Shown here: piece after piece, positions 4,804-60,255 of the stretch
Layout: each line of letters starts with the position of its first letter
Numbering within the stretch: the stretch's first letter is position 1
From: Massilia antarctica
Lineage (GTDB): Bacteria > Pseudomonadota > Gammaproteobacteria > Burkholderiales > Burkholderiaceae_D
Length of the DNA stretch: 64,000 nucleotides
Direction of reading: 5' to 3'
Assembly (NCBI RefSeq): GCF_015689335.1
Contig: NZ_CP065053.1
Location: 5,704,001-5,768,000 of the forward strand
Translations under genes and position numbers: made by a program
The notes under the pieces: model-generated
Told to the model about the DNA's origin: nothing
What the model saw: only the letters and a program-made list of their open reading frames with translations
The model's database searches: none

Positions 4804-6255
4804 ATGATTATTCCTTTTGCAAGCGCAACCGACACCGCTTCCCTCCTCGCATCCGGCGAGGTGTGCGCGATTGAACTGGTCGATTTCATGGTCGCGCGCA
4901 TCGTCGAACTCGATCCCCAGATCAACGCGGTCGTGGTGCGCGACTTCGAGCAGGCGCGTCGTGCAGCCGCGTCTGCCGATGCCGCCTTGAAGCGAGGCAT
5001 CCGCCGGCCACTCCTGGGGGTGCCGGTCACGGTCAAGGAATCGTTTCATGTCGCCGGTCTGGCGACCAGTTGGGGGATCGGTGCGTTTCGCGACTGGCCG
5101 TGCCGCACCGAAAGCGTCGCGATCCAGCGTCTCAAGCATGCCGGCGCCATTATTGTTGGGAAGACCAATATCGCGACCGCCCTGGCCGATTGGCAATGCG
5201 ACAACGAGCTGTTCGGGAAGACCAGCAATCCGTGGGATCCTTCCCGCACCCCAGGCGGCTCGTCCGGCGGCAGCGCCGCGGCCTTGGCGGCGGGCCTGTC
5301 TTTCCTCGAACTCGGCTCGGACCTGGCAGGCTCGATTCGCATCCCGGCGCATTTTTGCGGCGTGTACGGTCACCGCCCGACGCAAGGATTGATTTCCTCG
5401 CAGGGTTACAGCTTCCCGGGGACAACGGCAACGTCCGATCTGGGCACCATCGGCCCCATGGCGCGCAGCGCCGACGATCTGCGTTGCGCGGTCGATCTGC
5501 TGGCCGGGCCAGGGTCGCCAGAATCGATCGGCTGGCGCTTCAAGATGCCGGCAGCGCGGCATGATCAAGTGCAAGGTTTCCGCGTCCTCCTGTTGGACAG
5601 CCACCCGCTGGTGCCCAGCTCCGACGCCGATCGACAACAGCTCGACACACTCGCTACGGAGCTGCGCAAGCTGGGCGCCACCGTCGCGACCGAGAGCCCG
5701 CTGCTGCCCAGTTTGGCGGAGGCGGCGCATGTCTTCATGCGGATCTTAATCCCGCAGAATGTGGCGCGTCTTTCGGAAGAAAATTACGCGGCTGCGCTTG
5801 AGAGTATCCATGCCATTGCCGAGGATGATACGAGCCTGATGGCGGTGGGACTGCGGGCGTGCATCGGCAACCCGCGCGACGGGTTTCGCGCCAACGAGGC
5901 GCGCGCGCGCCTGAAGTTGCAGTGGCAACGCCTGTTTCGCGACTGGGACGTGGTGGTCTGTCCGGTTTCGCCCACGGCCGCCTTTGCTCACGACGACCGG
6001 CCGATGGAAGATCGGCGCTTGAGCGTCGACGGCTTGCCGATTTCGTATTTCGATCAAATGGCATGGATCAGCTTTGCCAGCTTGTGCGGTTTGCCGGCAA
6101 CCTCGGTTCCGTGCGGACTGAACCGGGAAGACATGCCAAACGGCTTGCAGATTATTGGCCCGCACTACGAAGACCACACCACGCTCGCATTCGCCAGCCA
6201 TCTCGAACGCCATTTTGGCGGTTTTGTCCCTCCGCCCCGCTTTGCCGGCCATTGA
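4804..6255 (+). CDS. Amidase-signature family protein (GatA-like)
   Basis: A 483-residue amidase-signature enzyme. The Ser-cisSer-Lys triad is visible as VKESF (Lys), GGSSGGSAAALAAG (cis-Ser) and SDLAGSIRIPA (nucleophilic Ser). An upstream GTG at 4747 would add 19 residues, but homology-like sequence starts at MIIPFASATD, so the ATG at 4804 is chosen. It likely hydrolyses a small amide. GatA function is unlikely because no gatB or gatC is adjacent. It is divergent from the TOMM-type operon and may act with it or merely share the intergenic region. Confidence 0.85.
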   Translation: MIIPFASATDTASLLASGEVCAIELVDFMVARIVELDPQINAVVVRDFEQARRAAASADAALKRGIRRPLLGVPVTVKESFHVAGLATSWGIGAFRDWPCRTESVAIQRLKHAGAIIVGKTNIATALADWQCDNELFGKTSNPWDPSRTPGGSSGGSAAALAAGLSFLELGSDLAGSIRIPAHFCGVYGHRPTQGLISSQGYSFPGTTATSDLGTIGPMARSADDLRCAVDLLAGPGSPESIGWRFKMPAARHDQVQGFRVLLLDSHPLVPSSDADRQQLDTLATELRKLGATVATESPLLPSLAEAAHVFMRILIPQNVARLSEENYAAALESIHAIAEDDTSLMAVGLRACIGNPRDGFRANEARARLKLQWQRLFRDWDVVVCPVSPTAAFAHDDRPMEDRRLSVDGLPISYFDQMAWISFASLCGLPATSVPCGLNREDMPNGLQIIGPHYEDHTTLAFASHLERHFGGFVPPPRFAGH

Positions 6256-6292
6256 AGCGATGCCCCGCAACGGCTCGCCTTAAACCGCTACA

Positions 6293-6594
6293 ATGCCCGC
6301 AGAATGTGCCGCACTGCTGCACGCCGGGAACGAGCGGCACCCCGCCGTATCTTTCCGCCCTGCCAAGGACCCGATACCCTCTTTCCGATACCTATTGCCG
6401 CCGTTCGCGGCATGCGTGCTGCTCAGCGGCGGAGTGATGAATACTACAACCGCGAGAACCGCATGGAGTTGCGGCGCGACCTCAAGGCGTTTGAACAGGC
6501 GCGCAAACATGCCCTGCCGAACCTCAAGGGCGAGGTTACGCTCGCCGAGACCCGAACTGTTGCGCGGCCAATACTGTTTTTATGCGCTCCGTGA
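6293..6594 (+). pseudogene. Possible frameshifted lipoprotein-like remnant
   Basis: Two overlapping plus-strand frames look like pieces of one gene. The 5' piece (from 6293) ends in a signal-peptide-like FRYLLPPFAACVLLSGG. The 3' piece (about 6430-6594, next frame) encodes EYYNRENRMELRRDLKAFEQ with strong G/C third-position bias typical of real genes here. A single indel near 6430 would join them. The rest of 6256-6859 shows no other credible gene. Function unknown; a chance frame is still possible. Confidence 0.3.
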
Positions 6595-6859
6595 CACCAC
6601 ATAACAAATAGTACCTTCTTGATAATGCCCCTGCACCATTGATGATGCTTCGGCGCAGCGCTGCGGCGGCCCGTTCGCCCACCGTTGCGCAAGGCGGGAA
6701 ACCGGCGCATCCTATTGTCATTGCCAACCAGTCCCATCGCGCGATCCCAGCCCGATTGTTGCGCTGACGCTACCTTTTTTATAACTTTTCCGGCAACAGT
6801 TATGTCAGCGCGGGCATGTTCGATTAAGATGGTCGGGTTTTTACTATCTGGAAACTTAA

Positions 6860-54269: not shown

Positions 54270-54388
54270 GTGCCACAAGAGAATGCCCCAAACTGTAACC
54301 TACATCAAGGAATTTCTCGAACGCAAACCTTAGCATCTTGTTGACGTCCGCCTCCGCGGCGCCTAACAGAACAAGAAAAGGTTATATC

Positions 54389-55807
54389 ATGCGTCCACGT
54401 CCTCTCCGCCTCGCCGGCACCTGCCTGGCCACGGCTTCCGCCCTTCTCTCCCTGTGCTCCGCCCCCGTCTTTGCCGCGGAACCGGCATTGCCCGTCATCG
54501 TGCAGGAACTGCTCGCCCCACCCGCGCTGCCGCCACAAATCACGCGCAAGACCCCGGCGCGCGTGGTCGTCAACCTGACGGTCGAGGAAATCGAACGCGA
54601 AATCGCGCCGGGCACGCGCTACACCTTCTGGACCTTCGGCGGCACCGTTCCGGGCAAGATGATCCGGGTGCGCGAAGGCGACACCGTCGAACTGCACCTG
54701 CAAAACCTGGCCGGTAACAAGCTGCCCCACAATATCGACCTGCACGCGGTCACCGGCCCCGGTGGCGGCGCCGGGCAAACCCTGATCGCCCCGGGCAATG
54801 AAGCCAGCTTCACCTTCAAGGCGCTGGCCTCCGGCCTGTACGTCTACCACTGCGCCACCGCCCCGGTCGGGATGCACGTCGCCAACGGCATGTACGGCAT
54901 GATCCTGGTCGAACCCAAGGAAGGCATGGCCAAGGTCGACAAGGAATACTACGTGATGCAGGGCGACTTCTACACCACCGGCGCCTACCGCGCCCCCGGC
55001 CTGCAAGGCTTCGACCTGCAAAAAGCGATCGACGAGCGGCCGACCTATGTGCTGTTCAACGGCGCCGACGGCGCCCTCACCGGCCAGGGCGCGCTCACCG
55101 CCGCCGCCGGCGAGAAGGTGCGCATGTTCTTCGGCGTGGGCGGACCGAATACCGTGTCGAGCTTTCACATCATCGGCGCCATTTTCGACAAGGTGTACAC
55201 CGAAGGCGGCACCCATTTCCAGGAAAACGTCCAGACCACCCTGGTGCCGGCCGGCGGCTCGACCATCGTCGAATTCGTCCCGAAAGTACCGGGCAACCTG
55301 ACCCTGGTCGACCATTCGCTCACGCGCGCCTTCAACAAGGGCGCGGTCGGCCTGATGGCGGTGAGCGGCCCCGATCGGCCTGAGATCTACGGCAAAGGCA
55401 TCAAGACCGCCATGAACGCCAAGGCCGCCCCACCCGCAGCGCCCAAGACCGCAGCGGTACCCGCCGCCACCAATGCGCAGCGCCTGCGCGGCAAGGCTGT
55501 CTACGACGGCACCTGCGCCGCCTGCCACCTGCCCGACGGCAAAGGCGTTCCCGGCGTCTTCCCGCCACTGTTCAATTCCGACTTCTTCCAGCAGCGTCCT
55601 TACGAAATGGCGCACATCGTCCTGCACGGCCGCAGCGGGGAACTGGTCGTCAACGGCGAGCATTTCAACTCCGTCATGCCGGCGCAAGACCTCGACGACG
55701 ACGATGTCGCCGCCGTCATCAACTATGTGAGCACCGACATGAACGCCGGTAAACCCGTCATCACGCCGGCCCAGGTCAAGCAGATGCGCCAGGTCAAAGC
55801 CAATTGA
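54389..55807 (+). CDS. nirK: Copper nitrite reductase fused to a C-terminal cytochrome c
   Basis: 472 residues: signal peptide (1-30), two cupredoxin domains and a C-terminal class I cytochrome c. Type 1 copper ligands His114, Cys155, His163, Met168; type 2 ligands His119, His154, His309; catalytic Asp117 and His260. Haem motif CAACH at 376-380 with Met430 as the likely axial ligand. Reduces nitrite to NO in the periplasm; the tethered haem acts as a built-in electron entry. AAAAGG precedes ATG 54389. A half FNR site (ACATCAA) lies about 85 bp upstream. Followed by nirV and a SCO-type gene. Confidence 0.97.
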   Translation: MRPRPLRLAGTCLATASALLSLCSAPVFAAEPALPVIVQELLAPPALPPQITRKTPARVVVNLTVEEIEREIAPGTRYTFWTFGGTVPGKMIRVREGDTVELHLQNLAGNKLPHNIDLHAVTGPGGGAGQTLIAPGNEASFTFKALASGLYVYHCATAPVGMHVANGMYGMILVEPKEGMAKVDKEYYVMQGDFYTTGAYRAPGLQGFDLQKAIDERPTYVLFNGADGALTGQGALTAAAGEKVRMFFGVGGPNTVSSFHIIGAIFDKVYTEGGTHFQENVQTTLVPAGGSTIVEFVPKVPGNLTLVDHSLTRAFNKGAVGLMAVSGPDRPEIYGKGIKTAMNAKAAPPAAPKTAAVPAATNAQRLRGKAVYDGTCAACHLPDGKGVPGVFPPLFNSDFFQQRPYEMAHIVLHGRSGELVVNGEHFNSVMPAQDLDDDDVAAVINYVSTDMNAGKPVITPAQVKQMRQVKAN

Positions 55808-55814
55808 ACGCGCC

Positions 55815-56612
55815 ATGAAACGCCAATTGACCGCCCTGGCCTGCGCGGCGATGCTGTGCACGGCGGCCGCCGCCGGCGATTACGTCGCGCTGCCGGGCGC
55901 CATGTTGCGCTCGGTCATGCCGGCCGACGGCAAGGAAGCGCCGGCCAACGTGGCGCCGTTTTCGATGCGCACCGCCCCGGTCACCAACGCCGAGTTCCGT
56001 GCCTTCGTCCTCGCGCATCCGCAATGGCAGCGCGGCCAGGCGCCTGGCGTGCTTGTGTCGTCCACCTACCTGTCGGGCTGGCGCGGCGCGGCCGATCACG
56101 GCACCCTGGCGCCGGATTCGCCGGTGACCAACGTCAGCTGGCATGCGGCGACCGCCTTTTGCGCCAGCGAGGGTGCGCGCTTGCCGCGCTGGCACGAGTG
56201 GGAGTACGCCGCCGCGGCCGACGCCACCCACGCCGACGCGCGCGACGACCCGCAATGGCTGGAACACATCCTCAACTGGTACGCCCATCCGGCCAGCACG
56301 CCGCCCTCGCGCGTGCGCGGCGAAACGCCGAACTTCCACGGCCTGTACGACATGCACGGCCTGATATGGGAATGGGTCGAGGATTACAGTGCGCTGTTCG
56401 TCAGCGCCGACAGCCGCACCATGGACCCGCGCAAGGTGCTCGACTACTGCGGCGGCGCGGCCCTGTCGCTGGGCGACCGGCGCAACTACGCGGTGCTGAT
56501 GCGCATCGCGCTGCTGGCCGCGATGGAAGGCGCGCAGGACGGCGGCTATCTGGGCTTTCGCTGCGCGCGCGGCGCCGACAACGATCCACCTACACCGAAG
56601 GAATCACCATGA
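55815..56612 (+). CDS. nirV: NirV, formylglycine-generating-enzyme-like protein
   Basis: 265 residues with a signal peptide and the FGE-sulfatase/SUMF1 fold: PFSMRTAPVTNAEFRAFVLA, SPVTNVSWHAATAFCASEGARLPRWHEWEYAAAAD (shown in part by NVSWHAATAFCASEGARLP) and GLIWEWVEDY. It is the usual neighbour of nirK in denitrifiers; catalytic role unproven and the FGE cysteine pair is not clearly conserved. It starts 8 bp after nirK and overlaps the SCO gene by four bases. Confidence 0.93.
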   Translation: MKRQLTALACAAMLCTAAAAGDYVALPGAMLRSVMPADGKEAPANVAPFSMRTAPVTNAEFRAFVLAHPQWQRGQAPGVLVSSTYLSGWRGAADHGTLAPDSPVTNVSWHAATAFCASEGARLPRWHEWEYAAAADATHADARDDPQWLEHILNWYAHPASTPPSRVRGETPNFHGLYDMHGLIWEWVEDYSALFVSADSRTMDPRKVLDYCGGAALSLGDRRNYAVLMRIALLAAMEGAQDGGYLGFRCARGADNDPPTPKESP

Positions 56613-57199
56613 ACAGCTTCAGCCCCCTGCGCCGCGCACTGCTGCGCGCGGGCACCCTGGCCGCCATCGTCCTGGCGGCCCCCCTGGCGGGCGCCGACCC
56701 GCTGCCGGCCGACTCGCTCTACCGCCTGCCGGTGCCGCTCAAGGACAGCCAAGGCCGCCAGTTCGACTGGCGCGCCCTGGCCGGCCGTCCCCTGCTGGTG
56801 ACGATGTTTTACGGCGACTGCAACGCGGCCTGCCCGATCATCATCGAAAACCTGCGCCGCACGGTCGAGCTGATCAAGCCCGCGCCCGGCCGCCTGACGG
56901 TGCTCATGGTCAGCCTCGACCCGCTGTACGACACACAAGACTCCCTGGCCCGGCTGGCCAGTTCGCACAAGCTCGATCCCGCCATCTTCCGCCTGGCGGT
57001 GGCCGCCGGCGAAACCCAGACGCGCGCCATGGCCGGCGCGCTGCAGATCAAGTACCGCGCCGTGAGCAACGGCGAAATCAACCACACCACGCGCGTGTGC
57101 CTGCTCGACGCCAGCGGCAAACTGCTCGCGGCAAGCACACAACTGAGTCCCGTGCCCGATCCGGCCTTTGTCGCGCAGATCCGGCTGGCGCTTAAATAG
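56609..57199 (+). CDS. SCO1/SenC-type copper chaperone
   Basis: 196 residues with an N-terminal signal or anchor (about 8-28) and a thioredoxin-like SCO domain. Copper ligands are CNAAC (CxxxC motif in MFYGDCNAACPI) and His in NGEINHTTRV. It probably delivers copper to NirK; in other bacteria SCO proteins serve cytochrome oxidase CuA. Its start overlaps the nirV stop (ATGA), marking a nirK-nirV-sco operon. Confidence 0.93.
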   Translation: MNSFSPLRRALLRAGTLAAIVLAAPLAGADPLPADSLYRLPVPLKDSQGRQFDWRALAGRPLLVTMFYGDCNAACPIIIENLRRTVELIKPAPGRLTVLMVSLDPLYDTQDSLARLASSHKLDPAIFRLAVAAGETQTRAMAGALQIKYRAVSNGEINHTTRVCLLDASGKLLAASTQLSPVPDPAFVAQIRLALK

Positions 57200-57326: not shown

Positions 57327-59342
57327 ATGACCATCCCACCGCTTCACTTCCCCACCCACATCCGCAAGCGTGACGGCGCCGTCAAGCCGTTTGACGCCAC
57401 CCGCATCGAATCGGCCATGCAGCGCGCCGCGCTGGCCAGCGGCGAGTTCGATACCGGCACCGCCCATCTGCTGACCTGGAACACGGTCCTGCCCGCGCTG
57501 GCCGCACTGGGCGCCGACACCCCCGGCGTCGAGCAAGTGCAGGACGCCGTGGAGGCAGCCCTGTTCGAGGCCGGCCACCGTGCGACCCTGCGCGCCTATG
57601 TGGTCTACCGCGAACAGCACCACAGCCTGCGGCGCGACCGCAAAAGCCTGATCGACGTCGAAGTGTCGATGAATGAATACCTGGAGCAGCGCGACTGGCG
57701 GGTCAACGCCAACGCCAACCAGGGCTACTCGCTGGGCGGGCTGATACTGAACGTGTCCGGCAAGGTGATCGCCAACTACTGGCTCGACCATGTCTATCCG
57801 CCCGCCGTGGGCGAGGCCCACCGCAACGCCGACCTGCACATCCACGACCTCGACATGCTGGCCGGGTACTGCGCCGGCTGGTCGCTGCGCACCCTGCTCA
57901 ATGAAGGCTTGAACGGCGTGCCGGGCAAGATCGAATCGTCGCCGCCCAAGCACATGTCGAGCGCGATCGGCCAGATCGTCAACTTCCTCGGCACCCTGCA
58001 AAACGAGTGGGCCGGGGCCCAGGCCTTCAGCTCCTTCGACACCTACATGGCGCCCTACGTGCGCGCCGACGCCTTGAGCTACGAGAGCGTCAAGCAGTAC
58101 ATCCAGGAGCTGATCTACAACCTGAACGTGCCCTCGCGCTGGGGCACCCAGACACCATTCACCAACCTGACGTTCGACTGGGTGTGTCCGGAAGACCTGC
58201 GCGAGCAGGTGCCGTTCATCGCCGGCGTCGAAATGCCGTTCACCTACGGCGATCTGCAGGTGGAAATGGACATGATCAACCGCGCCTACATCGAGATCAT
58301 GATGACCGGCGACGCCAAGGGGCGCGTGTTCACCTTCCCCATCCCGACCTACAACATCACCGAGGACTTCGCGTGGCACAGCCCCAACGCGGAGCTGCTG
58401 TTCGAGATGACGGCGCGCTACGGCCTGCCCTACTTCCAGAACTTCCTCAATTCGGAGCTGAAACCGAACATGATCCGTTCGATGTGCTGCCGCCTGCAGC
58501 TCGACCTGCGCGAACTGCTCAAGCGCGGCAACGGCCTGTTCGGATCGGCCGAGCAGACCGGGTCGCTGGGCGTGGTGACGATCAATTGCGCGCGCCTGGG
58601 CTACCTGCATGCGGATGACGAGGAAGGCCTGTTCGCGGCGCTCGACCGCCTGCTCGACCTGGGCCGCGACAGCCTGGAAATCAAGCGCAAGGTGATCCAG
58701 CGCCACATGGACAATGGCTTGTTCCCGTACACGAAGCGTTACCTGGGCACCCTGCGCAACCACTTCTCGACCCTGGGGGTGAACGGCGTCAATGAGATGA
58801 TCCGCAACTTCACCTGGGGCGAGCAGGATATCGCCAGCGAATGGGGCCACGCCTTCGCCCTGCGCCTGCTGGACCATGTGCGCGCGCGCATGCTGGAGTT
58901 CCAGGACCAGACCGGCCATATGTACAACCTGGAGGCGACGCCGGCCGAAGGCACTACCTACCGCTTCGCGCGCGAAGACCGCAAGCGCCATCCGGACATC
59001 CTGCAGGCCGGGACCGATGCCATGCCTTACTACACCAACTCCTCGCAACTGCCGGTCGGGTTTACGGACGACCCGTTCGAGGCGCTGGAACGGCAGGACC
59101 CGCTGCAGCGAAAATACACGGGCGGCACCGTGCTGCACCTGTACATGAGCGAGCCGCTGTCCACGGCCGACGCCTGCCGCCAGCTGGTAAGGCGCGCGCT
59201 GGGCCGCTTCGGCCTGCCGTACATCACCGTCACGCCCACGTTTTCGATCTGCCCCAAACACGGCTACCTCGGGGGCAGCCATCCATTTTGTCCCAAATGC
59301 GATCTCGATCTGATCGCGCGCAAGCAACGCGAAGTTGCGTAA
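57327..59342 (+). CDS. nrdD: Anaerobic ribonucleoside-triphosphate reductase, large chain without glycyl radical site
   Basis: 671 residues: N-terminal ATP-cone (IRKRDGAVKPFDATRIESAM) and the class III reductase barrel (NVSGKVIANYWLDHVYP, HIHDLDMLAGYCAGWSLR, RYGLPYFQNFLNS, MCCRLQLDL, SLGVVTINCARLGY). The C-terminal zinc region keeps Cys642, Cys655 and Cys658 (CPKHGYL and CPKC) and the chain stops 13 residues later. The glycyl radical segment expected next is missing from this chain and is encoded by the following small gene. SD GAG precedes ATG. Makes dNTPs from NTPs without oxygen. Confidence 0.93.
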   Translation: MTIPPLHFPTHIRKRDGAVKPFDATRIESAMQRAALASGEFDTGTAHLLTWNTVLPALAALGADTPGVEQVQDAVEAALFEAGHRATLRAYVVYREQHHSLRRDRKSLIDVEVSMNEYLEQRDWRVNANANQGYSLGGLILNVSGKVIANYWLDHVYPPAVGEAHRNADLHIHDLDMLAGYCAGWSLRTLLNEGLNGVPGKIESSPPKHMSSAIGQIVNFLGTLQNEWAGAQAFSSFDTYMAPYVRADALSYESVKQYIQELIYNLNVPSRWGTQTPFTNLTFDWVCPEDLREQVPFIAGVEMPFTYGDLQVEMDMINRAYIEIMMTGDAKGRVFTFPIPTYNITEDFAWHSPNAELLFEMTARYGLPYFQNFLNSELKPNMIRSMCCRLQLDLRELLKRGNGLFGSAEQTGSLGVVTINCARLGYLHADDEEGLFAALDRLLDLGRDSLEIKRKVIQRHMDNGLFPYTKRYLGTLRNHFSTLGVNGVNEMIRNFTWGEQDIASEWGHAFALRLLDHVRARMLEFQDQTGHMYNLEATPAEGTTYRFAREDRKRHPDILQAGTDAMPYYTNSSQLPVGFTDDPFEALERQDPLQRKYTGGTVLHLYMSEPLSTADACRQLVRRALGRFGLPYITVTPTFSICPKHGYLGGSHPFCPKCDLDLIARKQREVA

Positions 59343-59360
59343 CCACCCAAGGAGTCATTC

Positions 59361-59555
59361 ATGTCAGACCTCAGCCAAGCCGTATTTTTCGCACCCCACA
59401 CTGTTACCCTGACCGATGCCGAGCGCCAGCCGTGCGAAGTCTGGACCCGCGTGATGGGCTATCACCGCCCCGTGTCGTCCTTCAATACCGGCAAGAAGGG
59501 CGAGTTCCACGAGCGTACCTGGTTCACCGAGCGGGCCGTCGCGGCGCGCAGCTAA
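59361..59555 (+). CDS. Glycyl-radical fragment of NrdD encoded separately
   Basis: 64 residues. Contains CEVWTRVMGYHRPVSSFN and GKKGEFHERTWF, the C-terminal class III reductase glycyl-radical site (predicted Gly33 in RVMGY). It has its own AAGGAG seven bases before the ATG. It is in the same frame as nrdD, separated only by TAA and six codons, so a gene split or stop gain is plausible. To work, it must dock on the NrdD chain, much as the spare-part protein YfiD does for pyruvate formate-lyase. nrdG begins one base after its stop. Confidence 0.85.
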   Translation: MSDLSQAVFFAPHTVTLTDAERQPCEVWTRVMGYHRPVSSFNTGKKGEFHERTWFTERAVAARS

Positions 59556-59556
59556 A

Positions 59557-60255
59557 GTGGGCGCCGGCGCGCTGCGGGTGGGCGGCATCACCGCCTTTAC
59601 CGCAACCGATTTTCCCGGCAAGTTGGCGGCCGCGGTGTTCGTCCAGGGATGCCCGTGGCGCTGCGGCTACTGCCACAATCCGCACCTGCAGTCGCGCCAG
59701 CGCGGGCCGCTGTCGTGGGACTCGGTGATGGCGCTGCTGGAGCGCCGCGCCGGCCTGCTCGATGGCGTGGTGTTCAGCGGCGGCGAGCCGACCATGGACC
59801 CGGCGCTGCCGGACGCCATGGCGGCCGTGCGGCAGATGGGGCTCGCGGTCGGCCTGCATACGGCGTGCATCTACCCGCGCCAGTTGAAGGCGGTGTTGCC
59901 GTTGGTCGATTGGGTGGGGTTCGATATCAAGGCCCCGTTCCAGGATTACCAGCGCGTGACGGGGGTTTTCGACAGCGGCGAGCCGGCCCGCGCCTGCCTG
60001 GAGATGATCGTCGCCAGCGGCGTGGCGCACGAATGCCGCACCACCTTGCATCCGGCCTTGCTGTCCGAGGCCGACGTGGAAGCGCTGGCCGTGACCCTGG
60101 CCGATGCCGGCGTGCGCAATTACGCGCTCCAGACCTTCCGCGCGCAGGGCTGCGCGGATGTGGCCTTGAACGCGGCGGCCGCCGCGGTCATGGGCGCCGC
60201 GGCGCTCGAGCGCATTGCGGCGCGCTTCGAGAAATTTGTGCTGCGGCCAGCATAG
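59557..60255 (+). CDS. nrdG: Anaerobic ribonucleotide reductase activase
   Basis: 232 residues, radical SAM enzyme with cluster motif in QGCPWRCGYCHNPHLQ (CxxxCxxC) and SAM-binding GVVFSGGEPTMDP. It generates the glycyl radical on the NrdD system. Start is GTG 59557, one base after the fragment gene's stop, so the three genes are one operon and the activase would act on the separate 64-residue chain. Confidence 0.93.
   Translation: MGAGALRVGGITAFTATDFPGKLAAAVFVQGCPWRCGYCHNPHLQSRQRGPLSWDSVMALLERRAGLLDGVVFSGGEPTMDPALPDAMAAVRQMGLAVGLHTACIYPRQLKAVLPLVDWVGFDIKAPFQDYQRVTGVFDSGEPARACLEMIVASGVAHECRTTLHPALLSEADVEALAVTLADAGVRNYALQTFRAQGCADVALNAAAAAVMGAAALERIAARFEKFVLRPA

Follow-up and report, generated by a model that had tools for sequence, protein, structure and literature searches.

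When a gene for NrdD, the class III ribonucleotide reductase, stops before its glycyl radical site and is followed by a very short gene encoding that site, the question is whether the enzyme has been broken or is made of two chains. This question is raised by a stretch of 64,000 nucleotides (nt) of Massilia antarctica (contig NZ_CP065053.1, positions 5,704,001 to 5,768,000 of the forward strand), hereafter the window, in which positions are counted from the first letter. We consider it very likely that the two genes encode the two chains of one class III ribonucleotide reductase, a conserved form of the enzyme in which the radical subunit can be replaced. Direct support comes from the separate genes and their conservation, the ribosome sites of the small genes, purifying selection, the complementarity of the two parts and the existence of unlinked and extra copies.

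An earlier note, made from the letters of the window, had described a NrdD of 671 amino acids (aa) ending 13 residues after CPKC without a radical segment, a next gene in the same frame after TAA and six codons, with its own AAGGAG and ATG and with the missing site in 64 residues, and nrdG one base further on; the sequence and, for the first point, the profiles agree with this description. Precisely, the nrdD core gene (57327-59342; all the features given here are on the + strand) runs from the ATG at 57327 to the TAA at 59340-59342, and its 671-aa product matches PF03477 over residues 11-99, PF13597 over residues 129-659 and NF006126 with 1110.7 bits. Profiles and translation give an ATP-cone and a class III catalytic barrel with no glycyl radical segment. 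We read from the sequence both the finger-loop motif MCCR (core residues 386-389, 58482-58493), of the double-cysteine type with methionine, and the zinc motif CPKHG...CPKC (59250-59300), which is retained on the core chain 13 residues before its end. A finger loop of the MCCR type is described in PMC9669993 as one of two dominant motifs. Core and small open reading frame (ORF) share a frame here, with six codons between them, and the AAGGAG of the small gene (59349-59354) lies 6 nt 5′ of its ATG at 59361. The small glycyl radical chain (59361-59555, stop codon at 59553-59555) has 64 aa and holds CEVWTRVMGYHRPV; Gly33 in TRVMGYHRP (codon at 59457-59459) is the predicted radical residue and is invariant across the 14 rows of our alignment A1. 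One base after the TAA of the small gene begins, with the GTG at 59557, the gene of the activase NrdG (59557-60255), a radical S-adenosylmethionine (SAM) protein of 232 aa scoring 193.3 bits with TIGR02495 (NrdG2), against a cut-off of 131.15. The window hence contains the catalytic core with ATP-cone (by profiles and fold match), the finger-loop cysteines and the NrdG partner of a class III enzyme. The radical motif is on the separate 64-aa ORF, off the polypeptide of the barrel, and fused relatives are known; therefore, we called it a two-chain variant of the class III reductase.

The two ORFs divide the family profiles between them. In NCBIfam NF006126 (684 positions) the core covers 3-657 and the small ORF 649-682, and in Pfam PF13597 (562 positions) they cover 2-528 and 530-560, respectively, the small ORF scoring 32.5 bits with the latter, above the cut-off of 26.2. 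The NCBIfam scores of the small ORF alone were far under the model cut-offs, as expected for so short a piece. Against solved structures, the sequence of the core aligned to residues 104-615 of Thermotoga maritima NrdD (E 1.8e-31), and the small-chain profile fell, weakly (E 0.8), on residues 616-645 of the same protein. The two ORFs are therefore pieces of a single family that complement each other.

It is within the glycyl radical domain that the protein is divided, the zinc site staying with the core and the glycine loop going to the small chain. According to PMC11226230, this domain is a single unit in Prevotella copri NrdD, with the zinc site followed by Gly711. Of the 211 distinct split loci defined below, 210 have a CxxC near the C-terminus of the core, and a median of 15 residues follows the last CxxC. 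The motif TRVMGYHRP was present in 220 of the 228 split or no-core copies in which it could be read, the other eight being one residue off. (One small chain, L158, had no readable motif and was excluded from motif and frame counts.)

To what extent the split is shared was judged from relatives. A core scoring at least 574 bits was present in 33 of the 100 genomes searched, our own included, and we read the best 30 loci, namely the window and 29 relatives: in 29 of them the radical motif is on an ORF of its own, 3′ of the core. The thirtieth (G066) has no radical ORF after the core; its small gene is 9.1 kb away, directly 5′ of nrdG. Within the genus, 11 of 16 genomes carry the core, and it is split in all ten in which the core is uninterrupted; the eleventh (G006, listed completeness 48%) has a broken core. 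Besides Massilia, the split form is carried by Herminiimonas, Janthinobacterium, Duganella, Rugamonas, Undibacterium, Sutterella, Acidovorax, Thauera, Rhodopseudomonas, Devosia and Pararhodospirillum, and by plasmids of Cupriavidus necator H16, of Bradyrhizobium and of the campylobacterote Sulfuricurvum; its range includes further families of the order, members of the Alpha- and Gammaproteobacteria, and one Campylobacterota plasmid.

The small-chain profile matched 115 of 399 genomes of the order, 34 of 369 of the class and 17 of 398 of the phylum (own genome included), counts that are not a census, because the search profile A1 consists mostly of split tails and classical fused tails score low. 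We retained as relatives the best 80 of 574 on genome contigs and the best 80 of 188 on viral contigs. From 271 hits in 274 loci we obtained 243 loci distinct by DNA, of which 212 were split, 14 fused and 17 without a core directly upstream. The last group comprised ten extra copies in nine genomes, two small genes unlinked from the core (G066 and G847), a plasmid locus (L037) and four loci that were not used: G940, where the small gene is 273 bp from the contig start; G937, in whose genome no core was found; G246 (L068), at a contig end; and L059, where core and small gene overlap, so that it is really split in spite of this tally. If only the order is considered, 106 genomes had more than weak matches: in 96 the small gene is an ORF of its own 3′ of the core, in six, all of one genus (g79), it is fused, and in four there is no adjacent core (the unlinked G066 and G847, plus G940 and G937). 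In one of the split genomes (G855) another gene stands between the two. The other nine genomes of the 115 matched only weakly, at E 1e-5 to 8e-4; the frames concerned are 596 to 701 aa long, and to judge from this length they are probably classical fused enzymes (one, G926, was fetched). By these sequence comparisons the split is old and conserved.

We next consider the readings in which the split would be only apparent. By a recent stop gain or a sequencing error, one NrdD gene would have been broken in this strain and its tail would be translated from an ATG that just happens to lie close by; the recent stop gain was the alternative which the earlier note had left beside the stable two-chain enzyme it leaned to. 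Core and tail do share a reading frame in the window, where a single TAA and six codons separate them, and Massilia sp. H-1 (L075, genome G1166), tallied among the 14 fused loci, has an in-frame junction of core and tail; this is the only case of what the note had named as evidence against a genuine split, a fused form in close relatives. In H-1, however, the NrdD region has match coordinates identical to those of G006 and a core broken by stops and frame breaks, and we discounted its fused frame as belonging to a low-quality region. The same split across relatives, in ten out of ten uninterrupted cores of the genus, in 212 of the 243 distinct loci and in all three frames, together with the conserved ribosome site, led us to reject both a recent stop gain and an assembly error, to which we give practically no credence, and supports the two-chain enzyme.

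A programmed read-through of the stop, or a frameshift, yielding a single fused protein would be compatible with the common frame in the window and in 60 of the 211 distinct split loci. In the remaining ones the small ORF is in frame +1 (69) or +2 (82) relative to the core, and the gap, with a median of 31 nt, ranges from a 38-nt overlap to more than 2 kb; therefore, read-through and frameshift are excluded as a general mechanism. In G066 and G847, moreover, there is no linkage between core and small gene. The small gene also has a ribosome site that the earlier note had taken, in the window, as a sign of a genuine split. We checked this sign in the relatives: a site of at least 5 nt was present at the chosen start in 191 of 211 split loci, and, with the same choice of start, in 526 of 4220 shuffled (12%) and 15 of 211 displaced controls. 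On this frame and gap spread, with the unlinked copies and the ribosome site, we rejected recoding as extremely unlikely. The small gene is, in fact, under purifying selection: in seven comparisons within the genus, synonymous divergence (dS) was 0.31-0.58 and nonsynonymous divergence (dN) 0.01-0.11.

Split and fused tails can also be told apart by their residues. A cysteine four residues before TRVMGY is present in 211 of 211 split small chains and in 9 of 13 fused tails, and a D/N-x-E/D-R signature ahead of that cysteine in 170 of 211 versus 1 of 13. The fused tails are of two kinds: classical ones, with T or A instead of the cysteine, such as CPTCGEKTEVWTRVMGY (L067; also L036, L157, L159 and L160), and others retaining split-type residues, such as CPKCDSANLEERQPCEIWTRVMGY (L256), which look like the re-fusion of a split ancestor. 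In a tree of 149 cores, whose deep branches are weakly resolved and long and which we used only for this purpose, fused and split forms are interleaved, with six changes by parsimony, at least two of them forced by well-supported branches.

Small genes were also found away from any core. Nine genomes (G366, G867, G893, G955, G1023, G1033, G1105, G1129 and G1165) have at least two of them and one core each (that of G1165 being read in two frames). A scan of its neighbours placed the extra copy of G1023 (L276, 2412-2621) between the genes of an endolysin and an Rz-like spanin; that of G1105 (L279, 4954-5178) lies in an arrangement that looks similar by the resemblance of its neighbours. Both are stand-alone ORFs in apparent prophage lysis cassettes. 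The extra copy of G867 directly adjoins a DUF3363 protein (both in L275, region 4892-6709), a domain that we take to be that of mobilisation proteins, suggesting a mobile element. The remaining extra copies are among ordinary or unknown genes. On two Allochromatium plasmids the radical piece of PF13597 is alone in the whole record, without a core; a profile search for NrdG yielded weak radical SAM matches on both, none of which reached the cut-off. As side observations, the linked core and small gene of G867, its nrdG and its second small gene lie on three different contigs (C182, C3 and C63); and a protein of about 620 aa starting MKLLLINPRYPESFWSF, by its look presumably a B12-binding radical SAM enzyme, is encoded just 5′ of the small gene in L228 (506-2374), where core and small gene are 2.3 kb apart, a similar one lying 3′ of the extra small gene, beside a NrdG fragment, in L282 (3076-4974).

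In IMG/VR the small chain is encoded by 188 contigs. In all of the best 80, the radical motif is present, and the NrdD core and NrdG (the latter sought with one sequence only) are absent from the fetched locus. Over whole viral records, which may be fragments, PF13597 found the radical piece alone in 37 of 37, and none of 39 records (37 viral and two plasmid) had a match to the NrdG profile above the cut-off. Distinct viral tails carry the split signature in 52 of 59 cases and the cysteine in 57 of 59. Seven out of seven small chains scanned matched PHROG 4132, of unknown function, at E 1.3e-5 to 5.9e-11, covering at most its positions 115-157 of 179; this phage family may consist of longer glycyl radical proteins. 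In one viral contig (L351, 5974-6706) there is an overlap between the small radical ORF and the first part of the gene of thymidylate synthase, another enzyme of DNA precursors.

These loose copies on phages and plasmids are the most surprising part of the picture and the least proven. It could be argued that the viral ones are not phage genes, but bacterial fragments assigned to viruses in error or remnants in decay, because IMG/VR contigs are computational calls, with no completeness estimate shown for the 37 records, because deposited phages (50,697 records) gave only weak matches, in one and two records, and because 12 of the 21 viral contigs probed had no clear phage function nearby (one of these, L326, having a replication initiation protein). 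On the other side, the motif is kept in 80 of 80 viral loci, phage-type neighbours (terminase, tape measure, tail fibre, endolysin, DNA polymerase, virion proteins) were found in 9 of the 21 contigs, one of them weak (L295, 4.5e-5), and one bacterial copy lies between endolysin and spanin genes, with a second in a similar-looking place. We hold misbinning or decay to be rather unlikely. The same stand-alone copies in genomes, plasmids and viral contigs could instead mean that the small chain is merely a spare part, with no obligate role, for a core active by some other route. Against this, split cores end so shortly after the last CxxC that, in 96 of the 106 genomes just counted for the order, the glycine would most naturally come from the adjacent small gene, and nrdG is close behind in the annotated loci read; we regard a spare part only as very unlikely.

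The two-chain enzyme would work as follows. The 671-residue chain would provide the zinc site, the ATP-cone for allosteric control and, with its finger-loop cysteines, the catalytic barrel; the 64-residue chain would provide the glycine bearing the radical. The small chain would dock on the zinc ribbon, placing its TRVMGY loop in the barrel beside the finger-loop cysteine, NrdG would generate the glycyl radical on it, and the core would then reduce ribonucleotides. Oxygen cuts glycyl radical enzymes at the glycine; here, such a cut would cost one 64-residue subunit, which a fresh one would replace, and extra chromosomal, plasmid and phage copies could be a further supply of replacement chains. 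That both proteins are made, that they dock, that the radical is formed in trans and that replacement follows oxygen damage is what we infer from the genes. We also favour, by a small margin over its negation, a broader proposal, namely a mobile family of replaceable class III glycyl radical subunits, in which Proteobacteria would have split NrdD so that oxygen destroys the 64-residue chain alone, and free copies on plasmids and phages would keep or restore the anaerobic supply of DNA precursors of the host.

Some points weigh against these proposals. Fused relatives exist, so the chemistry does not require a split. When both chains were folded as one by AlphaFold2 (AF2), with the stop read as glycine, the mean predicted local distance difference test (pLDDT) was 74.4, a moderate confidence that drops to values under 50 in the stretches 673-690 and 717-742. 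The range alignment of the model gives no distance between glycine and cysteine; the docking of the small chain on the core is thus only suggested by this joined-chain model. As for the use of extra copies as spare parts, it is suggested by their position and sequence.

In vivo context comes from Cupriavidus. The class III enzyme of C. necator H16, whose genes are on the plasmid pHG1, is reported to be essential for complete denitrification, and the defect of a pHG1-free mutant to be countered by cobalamin. On pHG1 we found three separate genes, one for a core of 676 aa, one for a small chain of 66 aa (253274-253474 of NC_005241) and nrdG. Since H16 reportedly needs the enzyme and these genes are split, a working class III enzyme of the split kind very probably exists; the enzyme required for denitrification in H16 would have its fragile piece as a subunit of its own, a piece that viral contigs carry alone. 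The literature searched gave nothing on the role of the H16 small gene. For C. metallidurans, two nrdDG tags are reported with one number skipped between them, and the small gene goes unmentioned there. In NCBI records, several small genes are named 'nrdD: anaerobic ribonucleoside-triphosphate reductase' and others 'hypothetical protein'. As far as we found, the small gene is annotated already, yet apparently undescribed, and our analysis corrects an annotation that omits it, calls it hypothetical or gives it the name of the whole enzyme.

On the same strand of the window, 5′ of nrdD (54338-57199), are genes for a protein in which a copper oxidase domain is followed by a C-terminal cytochrome c domain and which we take to be NirK-like, for an FGE-sulfatase domain protein, presumably NirV-like, and for a SCO1 protein. 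These genes fit a denitrifier.

No description of a split NrdD, or of a NrdD spare part, was found in the literature searched, from which subscription journals were mostly outside. The split class II reductase NrdJa/NrdJb (PMC5704485) likewise has a C-terminal functional domain of a reductase on its own gene; it is, however, B12-dependent, and its detached part is a cysteine-rich domain and not the radical site. One-chain class III reductases are those of T. maritima, P. copri and phage T4. A phage class I enzyme is also in pieces, its gene reportedly broken by insertion of a homing endonuclease with function retained; here there is no insertion between the parts, and conservation is broad. 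A close likeness is with YfiD/GrcA and T4 Y06I, spare parts of pyruvate formate-lyase presented in PMC8683613: there, a barrel without a glycyl radical segment is completed by a small protein encoded apart from it, whose radical motif is intact like that of the 64-aa chain, and a phage version exists. According to that paper, spare parts are demonstrated for pyruvate formate-lyase only and posed as a question for other enzymes. The earlier note had drawn this comparison, which stands for the mechanism and fails for the family: the small chain matches PF13597 (NRDD) and no other Pfam entry up to E 1, the glycyl radical domain of pyruvate formate-lyase type included. Unlike YfiD, it is of the NrdD family, has nrdG as its neighbour and, for most cores, is the source of the glycine that lies next to them; YfiD repairs an enzyme born complete, while the NrdD core is without its radical domain here and in 212 of the 243 distinct loci. 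In principle, the two-chain reductase would work like a cut pyruvate formate-lyase with YfiD, the radical chain being a regular subunit, and it offers a separable system for the study of radical installation and transfer. If the mobile subunit family is real, pyruvate formate-lyase may no longer be the only glycyl radical enzyme for which a spare-part system is known.
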